54,461 nucleotides of DNA from Prolixibacteraceae bacterium (GTDB taxonomy: Bacteria; Bacteroidota; Bacteroidia; Bacteroidales; Prolixibacteraceae), in the NCBI GenBank assembly GCA_019459525.1, contig JAIBEY010000067.1, positions 1 to 54,461 of the forward strand, written 5' to 3'. Position 1 is the first letter of the stretch; each line of letters begins with the position of its first letter. The notes under the pieces were generated by a model. That model saw nothing but the letters and a program-made list of their open reading frames with translations, was not told the DNA's origin and did not search any database. Positions 1,966 through 54,461 of the stretch are shown here, piece after piece. The translations under genes were made by a program, and so were the position numbers.

Positions 1966-4900
1966 ATGGCCGTAATCCTTCTAATAGAAAGAGAAACAGA
2001 TCAGGTAAAATCTCAACTTGATAACTTTCAACTGTTGTTGCCTGACACAACTATTTTAACGGCCAACAGCAGCCTGAAAGGAATAGCGTTGGCTGCACAG
2101 GCTGACCCGGAGGTAATTATCCTTGGAGAATTGGATCAATCGGATGACCGTATTGAGTTTTGCCACCAACTAAAGCGGGATAAACATCTTGGGGATATTC
2201 CTGTCATCTTCCTGATATACAATAAAGCCACCAAAGAAACCCGGATGAAAGCGCTGGATGCCGGAGTTGAAACATTACTTTCGTACCCAATTGATGACAT
2301 TGAATTGGTTGCCCAGGTTAAAGCAATGATTAAAATTAAATCGGCCAATCAATTGCTTCGAAAAAAACAAAACAATACAAATCATGACAATATCGGGAAT
2401 AAACGGGCTGAAATCGATCTGCAAAAAAGCAGAAATCTTTTCCAAAGCCTTGTAGAAAACCTTCCCCAACGCATTTTCATAAAAGACCTTAACTCGGTTT
2501 ACATTTCGTGCAACGAAATTTACGCCCGCGACCTTGGCATTACTCCTGACCAGATTATTGGAAAAGATGACTATGCCTTCCACCCCATAGAGTTGGCTAA
2601 TGCTTACCGCCGCGACGACCAGGAAGTAACCACCAGCGGAATACCTAAAATAATTGAAGAACAATACGTTAGCAAGGGTCAGAAATATTGGATACACATG
2701 ACCAAAACACCTTACCGTGACAACAATGGTCAAATTATTGGATTGCTGGGTATTTTTGAGGACATAACTGTACGCAAACAAACCGAAGAAGAAATTAAAC
2801 AAAGCGAATTCAAATACAGGTACATTTACGACAATGCCATTGAGGGAATGTACCGAACATCAATAGACGGGAAGGCCATAATGGCTAACGCCTCATTGGC
2901 AAATATGCTGGGCTATACTTCTGCTGATGAATATCTTAACGAAATGAATGATTCGCTACATCAGGTTTGGTTTAACGCCGAAGAACGCTCCAACTATATT
3001 GGCATTCTCGAAAAACAGGATATTATAAAAGGGTATGAGTGCCGGTTGAAACGAAAAGATGGCACACCTATCTGGGTTTTGGTTAATGCTAAATTAGAAA
3101 GGGATAAAAACGGTCAGAAAATTTACTCCGAAGGGTTTATAAGCGACATTACAGATAGGAAACTGGCTGATATTAAATTACTAAAGGCAAATCGGTTATA
3201 CAATGTAATAAGCCAGATCAACCAGGCGATTGTCCATATTAAAGATAAAGATCAACTGCTGGATAAAGTTTGCCAGATTGCCATTGAATTTGGGAAATTC
3301 CAAATGGCCTGGATTGGAATGGTCGATCCGGCCACGCAATTGGTAAAACCACATTCCATAGCCGGATTTGAGGATGGCTACCTCACGGCTATCACACAGA
3401 TTAAAGCAAGCAATACGCCTGAAGGTCAGGGTCCAACCGGCAGGAGTATCCGCGAAGGAAAATACGCGGTATGCAACGATTTTGCCAATGACCCGGACTT
3501 AACAATCTGGCGGGATGAGGCATTGAAACGCAATTACCTTTCGGCGATTGGATTGCCAATTAAACAACAGGGTAAGACAATTGGCTCGTTTACGCTATAT
3601 GCAACAAATCCCTATTTTTTCGACGATCAGGAAATTCAATTGCTCACCGAGGTATCCGATGACATTAGTTTTGCCCTGGACACCATCGATCTGGAACAAA
3701 AACACAACCAAACAGTTACTGCACTGGCCAAAAGCGAAGAACAATTTCGCGGAATATTCAACAACCTTCAGGACGCATACTTTCAAGCCAACACATCCGG
3801 AATCTTTACCTTGGTAAGTCCGTCGGCATTGCGCATTTATGGTTATCAGTCGTTGCAAGAAATGATCGGGATACCCGCGGGTGATCTATACGCGAATATC
3901 TCGGACCGTGATAGGCTGATTTCAGAACTCACAGCCAAAGGAAGTGTTGCAGATTTTATTTGCATGGGAAAAAGAAAAGACGGCTCTACGTTCTGGGTAT
4001 CGATGAATGTCCGGATTCAATATGACACTAACGGTAAGTTTTCCGGAACAGAAGGTGTCGTGCGCGATATCTCTGCGCGCATGCTGGCTGAAGAAGAAGT
4101 AAAACAAGCGAAGCAGCGTTTCCAAACCATGTTCGAGCAGGCACCGGTGGGTATTACGCTTAGCAATTCGTTAAATGACGAGCATATTGAAATTAACAGC
4201 AAGTTTGCCGAAATTGTGGGCCGTACCAAAGACGAAATAAAAATCTTAGGTTGGAAAAGCATAACCCATCCTGATGACCTGCAAGAAGACATGGAACAAA
4301 TGGCAAAGATGAATGCCGGGGAAACCAAAGGGTATCGAATGAAAAAACGCTATATCCGCCCCGATGGGAGTGCCGTGTGGGTTTACATGACTGTAGCCAA
4401 AATCAATGATGAAGACCACCTGCATCCGCAAAACCTTTGTATGATTGAAGATATAACCGACCGGATAAATAATGAGGACAAAATCAGAATCCTTTCACGC
4501 GCGATAGAACAAAGCCCTGTATCAATAGTAATTACAGATACAAAAGGAAGCATTGAATACGTAAATCCAAAATTTGCTCAAACAACCGGATACAGCCGGG
4601 AAGAGGCAATAGGCGCCAATCCTCGAATACTTAAATCCGAAACCAAATCGGGCAACGATTACATTCAATTATGGGAAACCATAAGCTCCGGAAACGATTG
4701 GCACGGCGAGTTTTTGAATGTTAAAAAGAATGGTGAATCCTTTTATGAATCAGCATCCATATCGCCTGTTTTTGATGACAATGGAAAGATTACACATTTT
4801 ATTGCAGTAAAAGAAGACATTACCGACAAAAAGAAAAATGAGGAACAAATTAAAACACTCAGCACGGTAGTGGAACAAAGCCCGTTGATGATTATTATTA

Positions 4901-46557: not shown

Positions 46558-48513
46558 TTATTCCGCCTGTTCCATCCGCCTGATATTTCGGTTGAGTGGC
46601 CGTTCAATGGAAATAGGTACTTTTTCTTCAATCACACAACTGCTGTCAAGTCCAAGAGCTTTTACATCGTTAATGCTGATCCAGCGGGTAAATTCGTGCA
46701 GTCCCATAATAATGGTTTCCCAGGGCGACAGTTCATAATCCTGGGTCATGATACGATCCAGATTTACGAACAGGAAATCCCCGGGATAAAAATGTTTCTT
46801 CAGCGATTCATAAGAACTGGTCAGTTTAATTTCGCCGTTGGCGACCATATCTTTTAAAACTTCTTTGAAATAAAGGTTTATTCGCGGCTCAATCTTAAAT
46901 CCCAGATGGAAATCAACGCGGATTAAAGTACCGGTAATTATTTGGGTAACCTCGTAGCTAAAAGTTTCCGGTTCGTTGGTGTTGTCAACATGCAGCAACC
47001 AATACGTCTGGGCACGTTTGGGCTGCTTGCTGAAAATAGAATACATGATTTTCGACTCAATCTGATAGGTATGGTTCGCTTTGATAATATAAACCAGGTT
47101 GGTAGCCATTGGCGGAATTGAATTGTCTTTACTGAGGTCTTCGAATAAATGCAGGTATTTGTTGAGGTTTGAAAAACTGATGTGCCTGTTTTTAATTTTG
47201 CGGCCGAAAAACCATCCAACCATAATCAGGGAAAATACGAATGCGAGCATCAGGGAAAACCAGCCTCCATGAGAAAATTTATTCAGGTTGGCCAACAGGA
47301 AAGAACCTTCTATTGTTCCAAACAACATAAACAGCGGAATAAGTAATACTAATCTGACTTTTCGCTGATGCAAATAATGCAGCAAAAGCATGGAGGTCAT
47401 AATCATCGTAATGGTGATGGAAAGGCCGTATGCCGCTTCCATACTCGATGATTCCTGAAAAAACAGGACCACAAAACAACAGGAAACCCACAGCAACCAG
47501 TTAATAAATGGAATATAAACCTGGCCTTTAATTTCGGTTGGATGTAATACCTTGATTTTTGGCCAGAAATTGAGTGACACCGCCTCGCTGATTAACGTAT
47601 ATGAGCCTGTAATTAAGGCCTGGCTGGCAATTACTGCGGCTGCAGTTGAAATTAAAATACCGGGAATAAGAAACCATGTTGGCATCATGGAATAAAATGG
47701 ATTCAAGTCTTCCACCGGAATGGGGTGGTTCATTAGCCAGGCTCCCTGCCCGAAATAGTTCAGGAGCAGCGAAATTTTTACGAAAATCCACGAAATGCGT
47801 ATGTTTTTTATCCCGCAATGACCCAAATCAGAATAGAGTGCTTCGGCCCCGGTCGTACACAGGAATACTGCACCCAGAAGAATAAAACCCTTGGGGTAAT
47901 TGGTCAGGAAGTCAAAAGCATAATAAGGATTAATGGCTTTCAACGCTTCCGGATAGTTTATAATTTGGGTAAAGCCAAGCGTTGCCAGCATCAAAAACCA
48001 GATTACCATCATTGGGCCAAACGATTTCCCGATGAATTTGGTGCCAAATTGCTGAATGAAAAACAGGGCGGTCAGAATAGAAAGAACTACCGGAATAACC
48101 TGTATTTCAGGATTTATCAGCCGCAATCCTTCGATGGACGAAGTTACTGTAATTGAGGGAGTAATTACCCCATCGGCCAAAAGTGCGCAACCTCCAATCA
48201 GGGTGATTATAGCTGCCCAGGTCGTCTTTTTCTTCATCAGCGCATACAGCGCAAAAATCCCACCTTCGCCATGATTATCAGCACGAAGCGTAATCAGAAT
48301 ATACTTCAGGGTCGTTTGCAGGGTAAGTGTCCAGAAAACCAGGGATAAACCTCCGTAAACCAGAAGTTTATCAAACATTTCGGCTCCGGAAGTAATGGCT
48401 TTAACCACATACAAAGGGCTGGTGCCAATATCACCGTAAACGATTCCAAGTGTTATTATTAATCCGGCAAAGGTTACCTTGTTTAAGCTTGAATGAGAAG
48501 AAGATTCTGGCAT
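46558..48513 (-). CDS. kup: Kup-type potassium uptake transporter
   Basis: A 651-residue protein with the KUP/HAK/KT signature at the N-terminus (TLGIVYGDIGTSPLYVVK). About 12 membrane segments lie in the first ~435 residues, with EGGIFALYAL, GCALLADGVITPSITVTSS, GTKFIGKSFGP and YSDLGHCG landmarks. A soluble C-terminal domain of ~215 residues follows. It imports K+ with protons at low affinity and does not need ATP. It lies 95 bases downstream of kdpE on the same strand, so low-affinity (Kup) and high-affinity (Kdp) uptake are next to each other. Confidence 0.96.
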   Translation of the reverse strand: MPESSSHSSLNKVTFAGLIITLGIVYGDIGTSPLYVVKAITSGAEMFDKLLVYGGLSLVFWTLTLQTTLKYILITLRADNHGEGGIFALYALMKKKTTWAAIITLIGGCALLADGVITPSITVTSSIEGLRLINPEIQVIPVVLSILTALFFIQQFGTKFIGKSFGPMMVIWFLMLATLGFTQIINYPEALKAINPYYAFDFLTNYPKGFILLGAVFLCTTGAEALYSDLGHCGIKNIRISWIFVKISLLLNYFGQGAWLMNHPIPVEDLNPFYSMMPTWFLIPGILISTAAAVIASQALITGSYTLISEAVSLNFWPKIKVLHPTEIKGQVYIPFINWLLWVSCCFVVLFFQESSSMEAAYGLSITITMIMTSMLLLHYLHQRKVRLVLLIPLFMLFGTIEGSFLLANLNKFSHGGWFSLMLAFVFSLIMVGWFFGRKIKNRHISFSNLNKYLHLFEDLSKDNSIPPMATNLVYIIKANHTYQIESKIMYSIFSKQPKRAQTYWLLHVDNTNEPETFSYEVTQIITGTLIRVDFHLGFKIEPRINLYFKEVLKDMVANGEIKLTSSYESLKKHFYPGDFLFVNLDRIMTQDYELSPWETIIMGLHEFTRWISINDVKALGLDSSCVIEEKVPISIERPLNRNIRRMEQAE

Positions 48514-48608: not shown

Positions 48609-49292
48609 TTAATTTCCAAACCGGTACCCAATTCCCGATTCGGTAATCAGCAATTTGGGTTTCGCCGGATTGTCTTCAATTTTTTTCCGCAACTGGGCTA
48701 CAAAAACTCTCAGGTATTGGGTTTGATCGATATACCCCATTCCCCAGACCTCTTTCAAAATGTAATGATGGGTCAACACCCGTCCTTCATTCCTGGCAAA
48801 TAAGGACAGCAGCGAAAATTCAGTCGAAGTCAGTTTCAGAATTTCATTGTTTTTCCGAACCAGATGACTCGACAGATCAATTTCCAGCGAGCCGAAACTG
48901 AATCGTGGATTTTCGCCATTCCCCTGATTCTGGCGAATAGCCACCCGAATGCGGGCCAGTAATTCGCCCGTTCGGAAAGGTTTGGTGAGATAATCGTTCG
49001 CCCCGGTATCGAGCGCCTTGATAATGTCGTCTTCCGAACTCCTGACAGAAAGAATAATGATGGGTTTCTGGTACCATTCTCGGAGTTTTTTCAGGACGAC
49101 AAAACCATCGGTATCCGGAAGCCCCAAGTCCAGAATGATCAAAACAGGCGCGTGGGATGCGGCCTGCGAAATTCCTTCATGGCCATTGGCAGCCGACAGG
49201 ATTTTGTAACCATTGGATGAAAGTGTAATTTCCAGCAACCGCCGGATTTGAACCTCATCGTCTATAATTAAAATTGCTTCTTTATCTGCCAT
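48609..49292 (-). CDS. kdpE: KdpE response regulator
   Basis: A 227-residue OmpR-type regulator. The receiver has DDE at 11-13, phospho-Asp55 in LIILDLGLPDTDG, Ser in ILSVRS and Lys in LTKPF. The winged-helix DNA-binding domain (~130-225) has LTSTEFSLL, ILKEVWGMGYIDQTQYLRVFVAQLRKKIE, typical of KdpE. It activates kdp transcription after phosphorylation by KdpD. Its start is separated by one base from the kdpD stop, so they are co-translated. Confidence 0.95.
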   Translation of the reverse strand: MADKEAILIIDDEVQIRRLLEITLSSNGYKILSAANGHEGISQAASHAPVLIILDLGLPDTDGFVVLKKLREWYQKPIIILSVRSSEDDIIKALDTGANDYLTKPFRTGELLARIRVAIRQNQGNGENPRFSFGSLEIDLSSHLVRKNNEILKLTSTEFSLLSLFARNEGRVLTHHYILKEVWGMGYIDQTQYLRVFVAQLRKKIEDNPAKPKLLITESGIGYRFGN

Positions 49293-49293
49293 A

Positions 49294-51984
49294 CTAAATT
49301 TTATTTTCGGGTTGCAGGTTCGTCAGGTCAGACGTATTTGTTGGAATTTTAATTGTAAACAGAGCGCCGCCGTTGGCCCGGTTTTCAGCAGTGATTGTTC
49401 CTTTGTGTGCCTCAACAATACCTTTTACAATGGATAATCCCAGTCCTGTACCTCCGGCAACGGCCAGTTCGCCCCGGTAAAATTTATTGAAAACCATCGG
49501 CAAATCGGAAACCGAAAATCCGGGGCCCCGATCCATCACCTGGATAAAAAGGAAACCGTTATCGTAAAAGAACTTGACACGCAGGCTGCTGCCTTTCGGG
49601 GCAAGCTGGGTTGCATTGAGCAACAGGTTGTGAATGACTTGTTCCATTAATCCAAAATCGAACTGAACCAACGGCATGTCGTCGGGCAAAACCACATCAA
49701 CATTGAAATCATTTAATTCGGTCGATAAACTTTGAATGACTTCATTGATCAGATCGTGTAAGTCGCACCAGTCAATTCGAGGAGTCAACCGGCCAGAATC
49801 GAGCCGCGACATGTTCAGTAGATTTTCAATCAGCCGGTTCAACCGTATCGCGGCCTGATTGATTTCTTCGTGCAGCATTTTCCTCGATTCAGGCGAATAA
49901 TCCTGGGCAATCAACGTATCCGATCCACCGAGGATGGTAGCAACCGGAATCCGCAACTCGTGCGAAATTGAGTTAAAGAGTGTTTTGTAAAGTTTATCCG
50001 ATTCATTCAGGATATAAGCGGTACGGGCAGTCATCCGTAAAAATTCACGTTCGATTTTTCCGGAGATTTGAGGTAAAAAACCTTCCCAGAATTGTTCCTC
50101 GCCCTGGGTAAATACCCGCAGATGCTGAACTGCGATAACACCCATATTATCGTTATTGCCTCTCAACGGGTAAAAAGTATAATTGCTCGACGGTAACGTA
50201 TCGCTAAACTTTCCGGCTTTGGCCGAATGCCTGAATGTCCATTGGGCAATGCTGATGTCGTTTTCGGTTAAGTTTAGTGCTGATGGATGTCGTGGTTGCC
50301 TTTCCAGACGATCACTTTCATCTTTCAGAAAAACAGCACTTTCAAGCCCGAAATATTTTTGGATATCTCTGAATGCCAAATCCAAAACCTCATTAATTCC
50401 TGAAACGGTTGACAGCTCTTTGGCCAACTGGTAAAGGGCATGGGTCCTCTCTTCCCTGATCCTGATTTTCTTTTCCTGTCTGCGAATCCGCGATGTTAAT
50501 ACGCCATTTAACAGTGCGATGATAAAAAACATGATCAGCATGAGCATGTCCTCTGTCTTTTCAACATGAAGCGTATAAAAAGGAGGAATGAAGAAATAGT
50601 TCCAGATGAGTGCGCTTAAAGTAGATGCCAACAGGATTGGCCCCGTTCCCAGAAAGAATGCAAGAATCGAAACGGCAAACAAAAGGACAAACGAAACCAC
50701 CTGGTAACCAACCAGACTTTTAATCAGGTAACAAACTAATGCAGTAAAAGCAACAATTGCGGTCGAGATCAGGTACTGACTTATACTTGACGTAAATGAA
50801 GGTCGCGCGGCTTTTCGTTTGTACTTGTCATCAACGGTGTTGTCTGATCCTAAAATATACACATCGATGTTTCCGCTATACCTGATGAGGCGATTCACAA
50901 AATTACCCAAACGAAATAAGGCGATCAGATTCCGTTCGCGTGGTTTACCAATGATGATGTGTGTGATATTTTCCTTTTGTGCAAAATCGACAATCGCCTT
51001 TACCAGATCATAATTGGTCACAATCCGCAATGAAATGCCCAACTGCTTGGCCAGGTTGATGTTTTTGTCCAGGGCTTCGCTTTCTTTGGGAGTAAGTTCG
51101 TGCGAAGTTTCCACATAAATAGCCTGTAAACTTCCGCCCATCATATCGGCCAGATTCTTTGCCCAACGCAACAATTTGGTCGATTGCTCGGTGTAGGTAA
51201 CAGCCACCAGCAAATGTACGCCCGATTTCCAAGGCCCTTTTATTCGTTTGAGCTGCATATAATCGTGCAACTGACGATCGACCCGGTCGGCCACAATACG
51301 CAGGGCCATTTCGCGCAAAGCGGTAATATTCCCTTTCCTGAAAAAATTCTGAACGGCTTCTTTCGAGCGCTCTGTGGCATAAACCTTTCCTTCCGAAAGC
51401 CTTTGCAACAGTTCATCGGGAGTTAAATCAACCAGTTCAACATCGTCGGCACGTTCAAACACATCATCCGGAATCGTTTCCCGAACAATTATTCCGGTAA
51501 TCTGCGCGACTATTTCCGACCTGCTTTCGAGGTGCTGAACATTTACAGTGGTATAAACATGAATGCCATGATCCAGAATTTCCTGTACATCCTGAAACCG
51601 TTTTAGGTGGCGGCTTCCGTGAACATTGGTGTGTGCCAGTTCGTCAACCAGCACAATCTGCGGTTTCCGGGCAATAATGGCATCCAGGTCCATTTCTTCC
51701 AGCGAGGTTGATTTGTACGTATAGGATTTCCTTGCAACCAGCTCAAAACCTTTCACCAGCTCATTGGTTTCTTTCCGGTTGTGAGTTTCCACATACCCGA
51801 TCACAATGTCGGCACCTTTCTTTTTTTCGATGTGTGCAGCTTCCAGCATCGAATAAGTTTTACCCACACCGGCACACATACCAAAAAAGATCTTCAGTTT
51901 ACCCCGTTTGCCTTTTTCTTCATCCACCTTCAATGAAGCAAGTAAATCATCTGGATTTGGGCGGTTGTCATCAAAATTATTCAT
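49294..51984 (-). CDS. kdpD: KdpD sensor histidine kinase
   Basis: An 896-residue kinase with the usual KdpD order: N-terminal KdpD domain with Walker A (GVGKTYSML, Lys42) and LVDELAHTNVHGSRH, universal-stress-protein-like domain (~250-370), four membrane segments (~400-500, DUF4118), GAF (~530-640), HisKA with His675 in SISHELRIPVATI, HATPase_c (VIHNLLLNA, DRGPGFSV, GTGLGLSIVKG). It senses K+ limitation or ionic strength and phosphorylates KdpE. Its start overlaps the kdpC end by 8 bases. Length is typical. Confidence 0.96.
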   Translation of the reverse strand: MNNFDDNRPNPDDLLASLKVDEEKGKRGKLKIFFGMCAGVGKTYSMLEAAHIEKKKGADIVIGYVETHNRKETNELVKGFELVARKSYTYKSTSLEEMDLDAIIARKPQIVLVDELAHTNVHGSRHLKRFQDVQEILDHGIHVYTTVNVQHLESRSEIVAQITGIIVRETIPDDVFERADDVELVDLTPDELLQRLSEGKVYATERSKEAVQNFFRKGNITALREMALRIVADRVDRQLHDYMQLKRIKGPWKSGVHLLVAVTYTEQSTKLLRWAKNLADMMGGSLQAIYVETSHELTPKESEALDKNINLAKQLGISLRIVTNYDLVKAIVDFAQKENITHIIIGKPRERNLIALFRLGNFVNRLIRYSGNIDVYILGSDNTVDDKYKRKAARPSFTSSISQYLISTAIVAFTALVCYLIKSLVGYQVVSFVLLFAVSILAFFLGTGPILLASTLSALIWNYFFIPPFYTLHVEKTEDMLMLIMFFIIALLNGVLTSRIRRQEKKIRIREERTHALYQLAKELSTVSGINEVLDLAFRDIQKYFGLESAVFLKDESDRLERQPRHPSALNLTENDISIAQWTFRHSAKAGKFSDTLPSSNYTFYPLRGNNDNMGVIAVQHLRVFTQGEEQFWEGFLPQISGKIEREFLRMTARTAYILNESDKLYKTLFNSISHELRIPVATILGGSDTLIAQDYSPESRKMLHEEINQAAIRLNRLIENLLNMSRLDSGRLTPRIDWCDLHDLINEVIQSLSTELNDFNVDVVLPDDMPLVQFDFGLMEQVIHNLLLNATQLAPKGSSLRVKFFYDNGFLFIQVMDRGPGFSVSDLPMVFNKFYRGELAVAGGTGLGLSIVKGIVEAHKGTITAENRANGGALFTIKIPTNTSDLTNLQPENKI

Positions 51985-52564
51985 CGTGATTTTTGATTTT
52001 ATCCAACTTCATATTCAGGTTTAGTACGTTTATCCGTTCCTCGCCAAATAACCCAAACTGGGGTGCTTCCGTTAATTCCGTAATCAAATTCAGAAGTTGT
52101 TGTTTTTGGCTGCTATCCATTTGCCTGGCCCTTACAATTCGTTCCACCTGCATTAAAGCGGCTTTTGGCGATATATGCGGATCCAATCCACTGGCAGAGC
52201 TCAAAAGCATTTCGGAAGGCACCTCTTCAGAATCTGGTAATTGATTAAACTCAACGAATTGTGCTTGGCGTTCTGCCACCAGTTGCCGGAGCTTTGAGCT
52301 TGTTGGTCCAAGATTAGAACCTCCCGAAGGCATTGGGCTGTAATCGGTTGCTGAGGGACGTGATGAAAAATACACCACGCTATCGAACTTTTGGCCAATC
52401 CATTCGCTGCCAACTACTTTATTTTCCTGAACGATTAAACTTCCATTGGCTTTTTCCGGAAATGCGAGTTGAGCTATTCCTGTTATCACCAGTGGATAAG
52501 CTACACCGAGCAGGATGGTAAGCAGCGAAAATATCTTTATTGCAATCAGTATCTGTGTTTTCAT
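51977..52564 (-). CDS. kdpC: KdpC subunit of the potassium-transporting ATPase
   Basis: A 195-residue protein with one N-terminal membrane segment (LLTILLGVAYPLVITGIAQLAF). Family motifs: GSLIVQENKVVGSEWIGQKF, YFSSRPSATDYSPMPSGGSNLGPTS, LLSSASGLDPHISPKAALMQVERI. The C-terminal soluble part stabilises the KdpFABC complex. It overlaps kdpD by 8 bases. A short gene lies between it and kdpB, which are normally adjacent. Confidence 0.95.
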   Translation of the reverse strand: MKTQILIAIKIFSLLTILLGVAYPLVITGIAQLAFPEKANGSLIVQENKVVGSEWIGQKFDSVVYFSSRPSATDYSPMPSGGSNLGPTSSKLRQLVAERQAQFVEFNQLPDSEEVPSEMLLSSASGLDPHISPKAALMQVERIVRARQMDSSQKQQLLNLITELTEAPQFGLFGEERINVLNLNMKLDKIKNHDE

Positions 52565-52569
52565 TGTTA

Positions 52570-52764
52570 CTAGTTTTTAGTTTTTGAATTGTATTTGAGC
52601 ATTTCTTCCAAATCACGGATCAAATATTCCAGCTCCATTACTTTTCCTGCTGAAATCAGGAGCAAATCGTGTAAGTTTTCGTTCTTGTATTTCTCAACTA
52701 AATCTATTTCCTTGACCTTCCGTGCCGAAAGCCGCACGATCAGATCTTTAATCAGGTATTCCAT
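52570..52764 (-). CDS. Unrecognised 64-residue protein between kdpB and kdpC
   Basis: An ATG two bases past the kdpB stop opens a 64-codon frame that ends 5 bases before the kdpC ATG, so it fills the whole gap in operon-like fashion. The protein starts MEYLIKDLIVRLSARKVKE and is highly charged (rich in Lys, Glu, Asp) and helix-forming, with no membrane segment, so it is not KdpF. EYLIKDL (residues 2-8) recurs as EYLIRDL (46-52), a possible internal repeat, and Leu/Ile spacing in between suits amphipathic or coiled-coil helices. It might be a cytoplasmic modulator or assembly factor of the Kdp pump, but that is inference. I know no family for it. Confidence 0.65.
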   Translation of the reverse strand: MEYLIKDLIVRLSARKVKEIDLVEKYKNENLHDLLLISAGKVMELEYLIRDLEEMLKYNSKTKN

Positions 52765-52766
52765 AA

Positions 52767-54461
52767 TCAGGCAAATAAATTGATAAGCAGATCAATAAGT
52801 TTGATTCCCACAAACGGTGCAAGAATACCGCCAAACCCATAAATAACCAGATTACGGATTAGCGCAGTATTTGCTGATACCGGACGATACGGAACGCCTT
52901 TTAAGGCAAGTGGAACCAACAGGATAATGATGAGTGCATTAAAAATCACCGCACTCAAAATGGCGCTTTCAGGAGAACCCAAATGCATCACATTTAATGC
53001 CGACAAAGGGCCAATCCCATTTTTCCCTGCATAAAGCGAAACAGCTATGGCCGGAATAATGGCAAAATATTTAGCCACATCGTTGGCAATACTGAACGTG
53101 GTCAAGGCACCCCTGGTCATCAGCAATTGTTTCCCAACCTCAACCACTTCAATCAGTTTAGTTGGGTTGCTGTCGAGGTCAACCATGTTTCCGGCTTCGC
53201 GGGCCGCCTGAGTGCCAGAGTTCATGGCAATACCAATATCAGCCTGGGCCAGTGCGGGTGCGTCGTTGGTTCCATCGCCAATCATTCCGACCAAATGGCC
53301 ATTGGCCTGTTCTGCACGGATACGGCGGAGTTTATCTTCAGGGGTCGCTTCGGCCATAAAATCATCGACCCCGGCTTCTGCGGCAATGGCTGCCGCGGTA
53401 AGGGCATTGTCTCCGGTAATCATCACGGTGCGGATTCCCATCGTTCGCAACTGTGCAAACCGCTGTTTAATCCCACCTTTCACAATGTCTTTGAGCTGAA
53501 TGATCCCTAACACTTTATTGTTTTCGGCAACGACTAGCGGTGTAGCACCCATCCGGGCTAATTCTGCCACTTTTTCTTCCATCTTTTTTGGGAAAAAACC
53601 GTTGCCATTATGGACAAACGAACGAATAGCCTCTGACGAGCCTTTACGAATCTGATGTATAACTCCGTTCGCATCAGTCAGATCGACCCCGCTCATTTTC
53701 GATTGAGCGGTAAACGGAATAAAAACAGCGTTTTTCTGATGGACATCACGCCCCCTGAAATCGAATTTTTCTTTGGCCAGAATCACTATCGAACGTCCCT
53801 CCGGGGTTTCATCCGACAGGGAAGAAAGTTGCGCGGCATGTGCCAAATCGGTCTCAGTTACGCCATCGGCTGGAAAAAAATTGGTGGCCATCCGGTTTCC
53901 CAGAGTGATGGTTCCGGTTTTATCCAATAAAAGTACATCAACATCACCGGCAGCCTCAATGGCTTTTCCACTGGTAGCGATAATGTTTCGTTGCAAAAGC
54001 CGGTCCATCCCGCTGATGCCAATGGCGCTCAGCAAACCGCCAATGGTGGTCGGAATAAGGCAAACCAGTAAGGCAATCAGTACCGGAATAGTCAGGTTTT
54101 GCGACATTGGCAATCCTGAAGCCGTCAAACTATATCCGAAGAAAGCCGGAAGGGTTACCACTGCAAGCAAAAAGATGATAGACAAGCCTGCCAGTAAAAT
54201 TGACAGTGCAATTTCGTTGGGTGTTTTCTGCCGTTTGGCGCCTTCAACCAGGGCAATCATGCGGTCGATAAAGTTATCGCCCGGTTCCGAAGTAATCTTA
54301 ACCAGAATTCGGTCGCTGATCACTTTGGTTCCCCCGGTAACCGCCGAACGGTCGCCTCCACTTTCGCGGATTTCCGGGGCCGATTATACGGTTATTGCCG
54401 ATTCGTCAACACAGGCAATACCTTCAAGCACATCAACCACCCAGGGGTTGACATCGCCGGC
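52767..54461 (-). CDS. kdpB: KdpB ATPase subunit, N-terminus beyond window, interrupted by in-frame stop
   Basis: The KdpB frame is readable from the right edge (54461) to its stop at 52767. It includes [41 protein letters not shown], the phosphorylation motif [25 protein letters not shown] and the C-terminal helices ending [10 protein letters not shown]. The visible part is about 565 codons; the first ~150 residues lie outside. At 54384-54386 a TAA replaces the Glu codon of the actuator TGES motif (reading ITV-stop-SAPE). The run up to the edge reads [20 protein letters not shown], unlike the usual GDVIPxDGEVIEGIASVDES. Downstream of the stop the sequence is fully normal. KdpB hydrolyses ATP to drive K+ uptake with KdpA/C. 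The stop may be an assembly or read error at a contig end; if real, the gene is broken. Confidence 0.9.

Follow-up and report, generated by a model that had tools for sequence, protein, structure and literature searches.

Histidine kinases can be restrained by very small proteins, and one of the closest comparisons for the gene described here is Sda, a 46-residue protein of Bacillus subtilis that, in the portion of the source drawn on here, is described as a helical hairpin inhibiting the kinase KinA via its DHp domain (PMC7430163). For kinases of the KdpD type, the sections consulted of a second source describe split systems in which serine kinase and histidine kinase form separate chains, several inputs including the Usp domain and UspC, and kinase chains that have no N-terminal part and show the composition TM/GAF/DHpCA; those sections make no mention of a small protein of the kind reported below (PMC11018627). 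Our small protein resembles Sda in that it is predicted to be a small two-helix hairpin and that its proposed target is a histidine kinase, but differs in being encoded inside K+-uptake loci and in lacking detectable similarity to Sda in Pfam scans. With KdpF, a membrane peptide, it shares its small size and its place in a kdp operon; KdpF, however, is encoded ahead of kdpA, whereas charged residues make up a high share (38%) of the small protein, which is also present in genomes without a KdpB above the family cut-off. Like the Usp domain and UspC, as presented in the sections consulted, it would supply an extra input to a KdpD-type kinase, but judging from the AlphaFold2 model it would do so as a two-helix hairpin and not as a Usp fold (PMC11018627).

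The window, by which we mean the whole stretch of 54,461 nucleotides that was analysed, spans the whole of contig C19 from a genome of 5.5 Mb assigned to a Prolixibacteraceae bacterium. The genes that matter here lie at its end, in transcriptional order:

52767 to 54461, minus strand: 3' part of kdpB, running off the end of the window and contig (TIGR01497)
52570 to 52764, minus strand: small gene, 64 amino acids, MEYLIKDL... (open reading frame, relatives, dN/dS, AlphaFold2 hairpin)
51977 to 52564, minus strand: kdpC (PF02669 / TIGR00681)
49294 to 51984, minus strand: full-length kdpD with KdpD, Usp, DUF4118, HisKA and HATPase domains, and GAF_3 below its cut-off (domain scan)
48609 to 49292, minus strand: kdpE-like response regulator with receiver and Trans_reg_C domains (domain scan; the name KdpE is taken from its position)
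46558 to 48513, minus strand: kup K+ transporter gene, downstream of kdpE (PF02705, E 2.2e-157)

A preliminary description of this stretch had placed a 64-codon frame with its own ATG between kdpB and kdpC, and we found exactly this arrangement: the frame opens with an ATG at 52764, ends with a TAA at 52572 to 52570 that is directly followed by a second in-frame stop codon, and is separated by 2 bases from the kdpB stop and by 5 bases from the kdpC start at 52564. Both neighbours were identified by clear family matches (kdpC, PF02669, E 5.5e-67, and TIGR00681; visible part of kdpB, TIGR01497, E 1.5e-235). The 5' part of kdpB of the same genome is located on contig C24, where kdpA and a KdpF-like frame, recognised by eye rather than by scan, lie upstream of it. 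Within the last ~75 bases of the window, kdpB contains an in-frame TAA at 54384 to 54386; since the end of the window aligns with the end of C24 over 74 bases at only 85% identity, and no stop interrupts the frame in this part of C24, the TAA seems to stem from faulty assembly at the contig end and not to mark a broken gene.

Protein and profile searches together yielded full-length relatives of the small protein in 18 genomes. Searching with the window protein recovered this frame in 7 of the 23 genus-level genomes, its own included, and in 11 of 149 relatives, while profile searches matched 9 of 100 genomes of the family and gave 9 strong and 7 weak matches among 393 genomes of the order. 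In the class and phylum samples (395 genomes each, both also including genomes from the window's own order), the window's own genome alone gave a match; in the order, class and phylum searches at most 15 first-look candidates were scored per genome, so that a distant relative could be missed. The viral contigs and plasmids that were searched gave no match. Within the samples searched, the family is restricted to the window's order. None of the seven weak order-level matches (E 2.3e-4 to 0.0084) was counted as a relative: six (G386, G306, G398, G172, G105 and G294) were dropped as frames with stops or as matches inside or across unrelated frames, and G279 was retained as a decayed copy. The one locus from a single-protein search of named genomes, in a Pacearchaeota record (L041), was rejected because the similarity is accidental and falls within a longer frame unrelated to the family, which from its reading we take to be a transaldolase.

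Substitutions between relatives are mostly synonymous, and frame, start, length (62-70 amino acids across 17 aligned members) and place recur. Nei-Gojobori counts for nine pairs, which share genomes and hence are not independent, gave dN/dS values of 0.05-0.22 in seven and saturated dS in two; in the pair G357/G266, for instance, the 42 synonymous sites carry 19 changes and the 156 non-synonymous sites 12. The preliminary description had made its gene call depend on homologous frames between kdpB and kdpC of relatives, on conservation of the frame and on the absence of stops and frameshifts in near relatives. Such frames were found, and the dN/dS values speak for a conserved frame; one distant genome (G279, beside kup) has a copy decayed with a stop, and 14 of 22 kdp loci of the family simply lack the gene. 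A chance open frame in a spacer would be expected to be short and without a match in curated families, as this one is, but such a frame would hardly keep its start, frame and length in 18 genomes or be predicted to fold confidently, and dN/dS well below 1 refutes it, which leaves this explanation with a negligible probability. We conclude that the small frame is a protein-coding gene under purifying selection and the representative of a new small family.

Neither Pfam nor NCBIfam contained a tenable match for the window protein or the 17 aligned members, and the best hit of a sequence search against the PDB (E 0.26) was no relative, in agreement with the earlier statement that the gene is unrecognised. 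DUF4635 (E 0.0099 for the window protein, below the cut-off of that family) and scattered weak family matches of aligned members were rejected as chance. We found no description of such a protein in open-licence PubMed Central text, and regard the family as a new one that belongs, broadly, with the small proteins regulating transporters and kinases. KdpF was considered and rejected as an identity: PF09604 was not matched by the window protein at E up to 10 or by the 17 aligned members at E up to 1, while the KdpF proteins of three scanned relatives do match it. Spo0E-like phosphatases are marked by the motif SQELD; this reading was rejected as well, as no such family appeared in the Pfam scans, and column 46 of the small protein carries an acidic D or E in all but two of the 17 members, which have T or K. 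Pfam also holds an Sda model, which gave no match at E up to 10 for the window protein or up to 1 for the 17 members, in a setting in which HMMER filters hide most weak matches.

AlphaFold2, run on 17 sequences, returned a two-helix hairpin with helices at 2-28 and 32-63 (mean pLDDT 95.9, pTM 0.77), and we therefore predict the small protein to be a soluble two-helix hairpin. The earlier portrayal of the product as charged, helical, soluble and unlike KdpF agrees with its share of charged residues, the predicted fold, the missing PF09604 match and the separately encoded KdpF. M1, G40 and I49 are invariant across the 17 sequences. Counting A, I, L, M, F, V, W, C, Y and T as hydrophobic, columns 1, 4, 5, 8, 12 and 23 of helix 1 and columns 35, 36, 37, 42, 43, 45, 48, 49, 52, 55 and 56 of helix 2 are hydrophobic in 16 or 17 of the 17 members. 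Because the conserved hydrophobic positions of helix 2 exceed the need of one packing face, the alignment suggests a surplus hydrophobic face on this helix that may serve a dimer or a bound partner. The internal repeat proposed before from EYLIKDL and EYLIRDL is visible in the window protein and two close relatives, where its score was reached by 6 of 500 and by 2 and 3 of 500 shuffles, respectively, but does not extend to the family: in the other 14 of 17 members the best self-match was reached by 30 to 498 of 500 shuffles. In favour of a repeat, an offset of 44 was also the best for self-matches averaged over the family, a value that comes without a control. At best, the repeat is weak and a feature of one lineage.

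All 18 full-length relatives are set in a K+-uptake locus, each combining the full-length match with an importer or KdpD-kinase locus, and 17 of them stand next to a K+ importer gene. Ten lie between kdpB and kdpC (G000, G001, G008, G014, G017, G019, G024, G065, G487 and G271), six follow a KimA-like permease and precede a short KdpD-type histidine kinase (G143, G154, G350, G357, G163 and G266), one is located directly upstream of trkH (G015), and the remaining one directly upstream of a short kinase (G106). Of the 18 clusters, 16 were seen to include a KdpD-type kinase, the other two being G487, whose cluster was left out, and G015, which has kdpD on another contig; among the kdpB-kdpC cases this corresponds to a kdpD in 9 of 10, some identified from the first residues of the frame alone. 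Spacing to the upstream importer is 2-10 bases for kdpB and 6-24 bases for KimA (five loci each), and from a 5-base gap to a 4-base overlap with kdpC in five loci; looser spacing occurs in G014 (about 85 bases to kdpC) and in G357 and G163 (93-96 bases between small gene and kinase).

In G143, the permease has a PDB match to the KimA K+ transporter (6s3k, E 1.2e-62) and also matches PF13520, of the amino-acid-permease type, and the permeases of the other five KimA-context genomes are 60-81% identical to it. In the six KimA-type loci and the kinase-only locus, the next downstream gene is a short DUF4118 kinase (7/7); DUF4118 was located in all seven loci, and the two kinases scanned (G143 and G106) consist of DUF4118, HisKA and HATPase, with no KdpD, Usp or GAF match in the scan. 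They differ in this from the kinase chain of split KdpD described in the sections consulted, which has GAF (PMC11018627). At the six KimA-like loci (L014, L035, L036, L037, L038 and L039), the short DUF4118 histidine kinase is accompanied by a KdpE-like regulator. Both a KdpB above the family cut-off and the KdpD serine-kinase domain are lacking in the six KimA carriers and in G279; two of these seven genomes are 79% and 90% complete, the KimA carrier G350 being at 79%. In G279 (L101, about 2993-3103), the order is kup, decayed copy, short kinase and response regulator, and what is left of the copy, behind a stop, is the C-terminal half (profile positions 28-64).

The small gene of G106 overlaps that of the kinase and lies outside the divergent neighbouring kdp operon, which on the opposite strand comprises frames resembling kdpA, kdpB and kdpC together with a KdpD chain that lacks the kinase part. 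KdpD is split in an unusual way here (L013, 2602-3696 and 8750-10750), with a 666-residue chain of KdpD, Usp and DUF4118 without a kinase core and another chain of DUF4118 plus kinase core. In G015, the trkH frame behind the small gene (L012, 8480-9920) covers profile positions 63-340 and breaks off close to the end of its contig, and a second contig (L055, G015:C138, 1-2933) opens with the rest of trkH (345-488), followed by kdpF, kdpC and kdpD; we infer that these contigs adjoin each other. The search of this genome gave no kdpB, no kdpA was seen in the kdpF/kdpC/kdpD cluster, and possibly TrkH takes the place of KdpAB at this locus. Several relatives also encode a protein of about 300 residues between kdpC and kdpD (L015 7350-8261, L016 7759-8661, L018 8299-9210, L042 575-1474 and L060 2080-2970), an MCP-like four-helix-bundle sensor with HAMP according to the scan of the L015 copy, which is absent from the window. 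Collectively, the small family is associated with K+ uptake and KdpD-type kinases rather than specific to the Kdp pump. The idea of a lineage-specific accessory or regulator of that pump hence survives in its restriction to the lineage but not with respect to Kdp as such, as 8 of 18 relatives lie outside kdpB-kdpC.

In the family, kdpC is present in 23 of 100 genomes and kdpB is readable in 22 of them. Eight of these 22 loci carry the small gene, 12 have a kdpB-kdpC gap of 4-35 bases, which bears out that the two genes are usually adjacent, and two (G013 and G492) have a gap of 96-100 bases in which the small frame is absent. In a tree of KdpB and KdpC, in which several inner nodes are weakly supported, carriers fall into three groups and G013 and G492 are found inside carrier groups, which suggests that the two long-gap loci may have lost the gene; the three groups are compatible either with one gain and many losses or with several gains. 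In the order, 16 KimA-like loci were present in 15 of 386 genomes, and the small gene follows in six of them, with the short kinase next in 6/6. Among the nine KimA genomes without the small gene, seven have a DUF4118 protein somewhere and two (G228 and G250) have none. G349 has KimA with a short kinase directly behind it and no small gene, and since its kinase groups beside that of carrier G106 in the kinase tree (from which the G207 short kinase was left out), loss is suggested here as well. As 14 of 22 family kdp loci and KimA/DUF4118 genomes exist without it, the small gene is optional and dispensable.

A conserved gene that accompanies unrelated K+ importers and a sensor kinase is a probable regulator of K+ uptake. 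Considering that the contexts have the KdpD-type kinase and its response regulator in common but differ in their transporter (KdpFABC, KimA-like or TrkH, with Kup at the decayed copy), we favour, at a probability of roughly 0.4, the reading that the soluble hairpin binds and tunes a KdpD-type kinase in a manner analogous to Sda and KinA. The model does have the Sda-type hairpin, a likeness of little weight given how widespread hairpins are among proteins. Some of the genomes that encode the small protein have the KdpD serine-kinase domain and others lack it, and this points to the common core of DUF4118, HisKA and HATPase as the putative partner. Being co-produced with the importer, the hairpin would bind the helical dimerisation and phosphotransfer region of the kinase, or the cytoplasmic helices leading there, and would bias the enzyme between its kinase and phosphatase states, either inhibiting or activating it; production of the importer would thereby feed back on its own expression. 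Taken further, the hairpin could be a plug-in regulator of KdpD-type kinases that is independent of the transporter, passed among the operons of a P-type pump, of KimA, of TrkH and, probably, of Kup, where it would signal importer synthesis to the kinase and possibly replace the missing N-terminal input domains of the DUF4118-HisKA-HATPase kinases, a broader proposal that we put forward tentatively and with some doubt.

Several observations stand against binding to the kinase. In the Kdp loci the small gene lies between two pump subunits and away from kdpD, a position that would suit a partner of the pump too; in G015 its neighbour is trkH, with kdpD on a separate contig; spacing is not always tight (G014, G357 and G163); many KdpD-type kinases do without the small gene, as in the 14 kdp loci of the family and the seven KimA genomes with a DUF4118 protein mentioned above; and Sda similarity is lacking in the Pfam scans. 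The main rival, which we consider rather unlikely, is that the small protein binds the importers themselves (KdpB/KdpC, KimA or TrkH), for example shutting or assembling them, and that the kinase is nearby through operon layout only. Its position beside an importer gene in 17 of 18 genomes and the tight upstream spacing would be explained in this way, but the importers are unrelated, so that a single hairpin of 64 residues would need to recognise every type, and in G106 the small gene goes with the kinase gene, outside the pump operon.

The narrower variant, in which the small protein serves KdpFABC alone as an additional subunit or assembly factor comparable to KdpF, fits the ten kdpB-kdpC cases and the close spacing seen in five loci on either side. 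It is quite improbable when set against the roughly 85 bases to kdpC in G014, the eight relatives elsewhere, the separate gene for KdpF and the family kdp loci that manage without the small gene; occurrence with kdpFABC only, as expected of a pump subunit, is contradicted by the six KimA-context genomes without a KdpB over the cut-off. Finally, the contexts would suit any role in K+ homeostasis, and together with the patchy pattern of presence they are compatible with a soluble adaptor for another K+-linked input, be it the response regulator, a second-messenger protein or a transcript. We regard such an adaptor as unlikely, since the family scans recognised no nucleotide- or DNA-binding family and nothing points to any particular partner of this sort. 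On balance, we retain tuning of the KdpD-type kinase as the preferred, though tentative, reading.

How KdpD-type kinases sense low K+ is still disputed, and the short kinases without the serine-kinase and Usp part sharpen this question. The small gene adds a new family where the annotation libraries searched (Pfam and NCBIfam) have none, and, as its product accompanies such kinases beside varied importers in genomes with and without Kdp, it offers a simple handle on K+ sensing.
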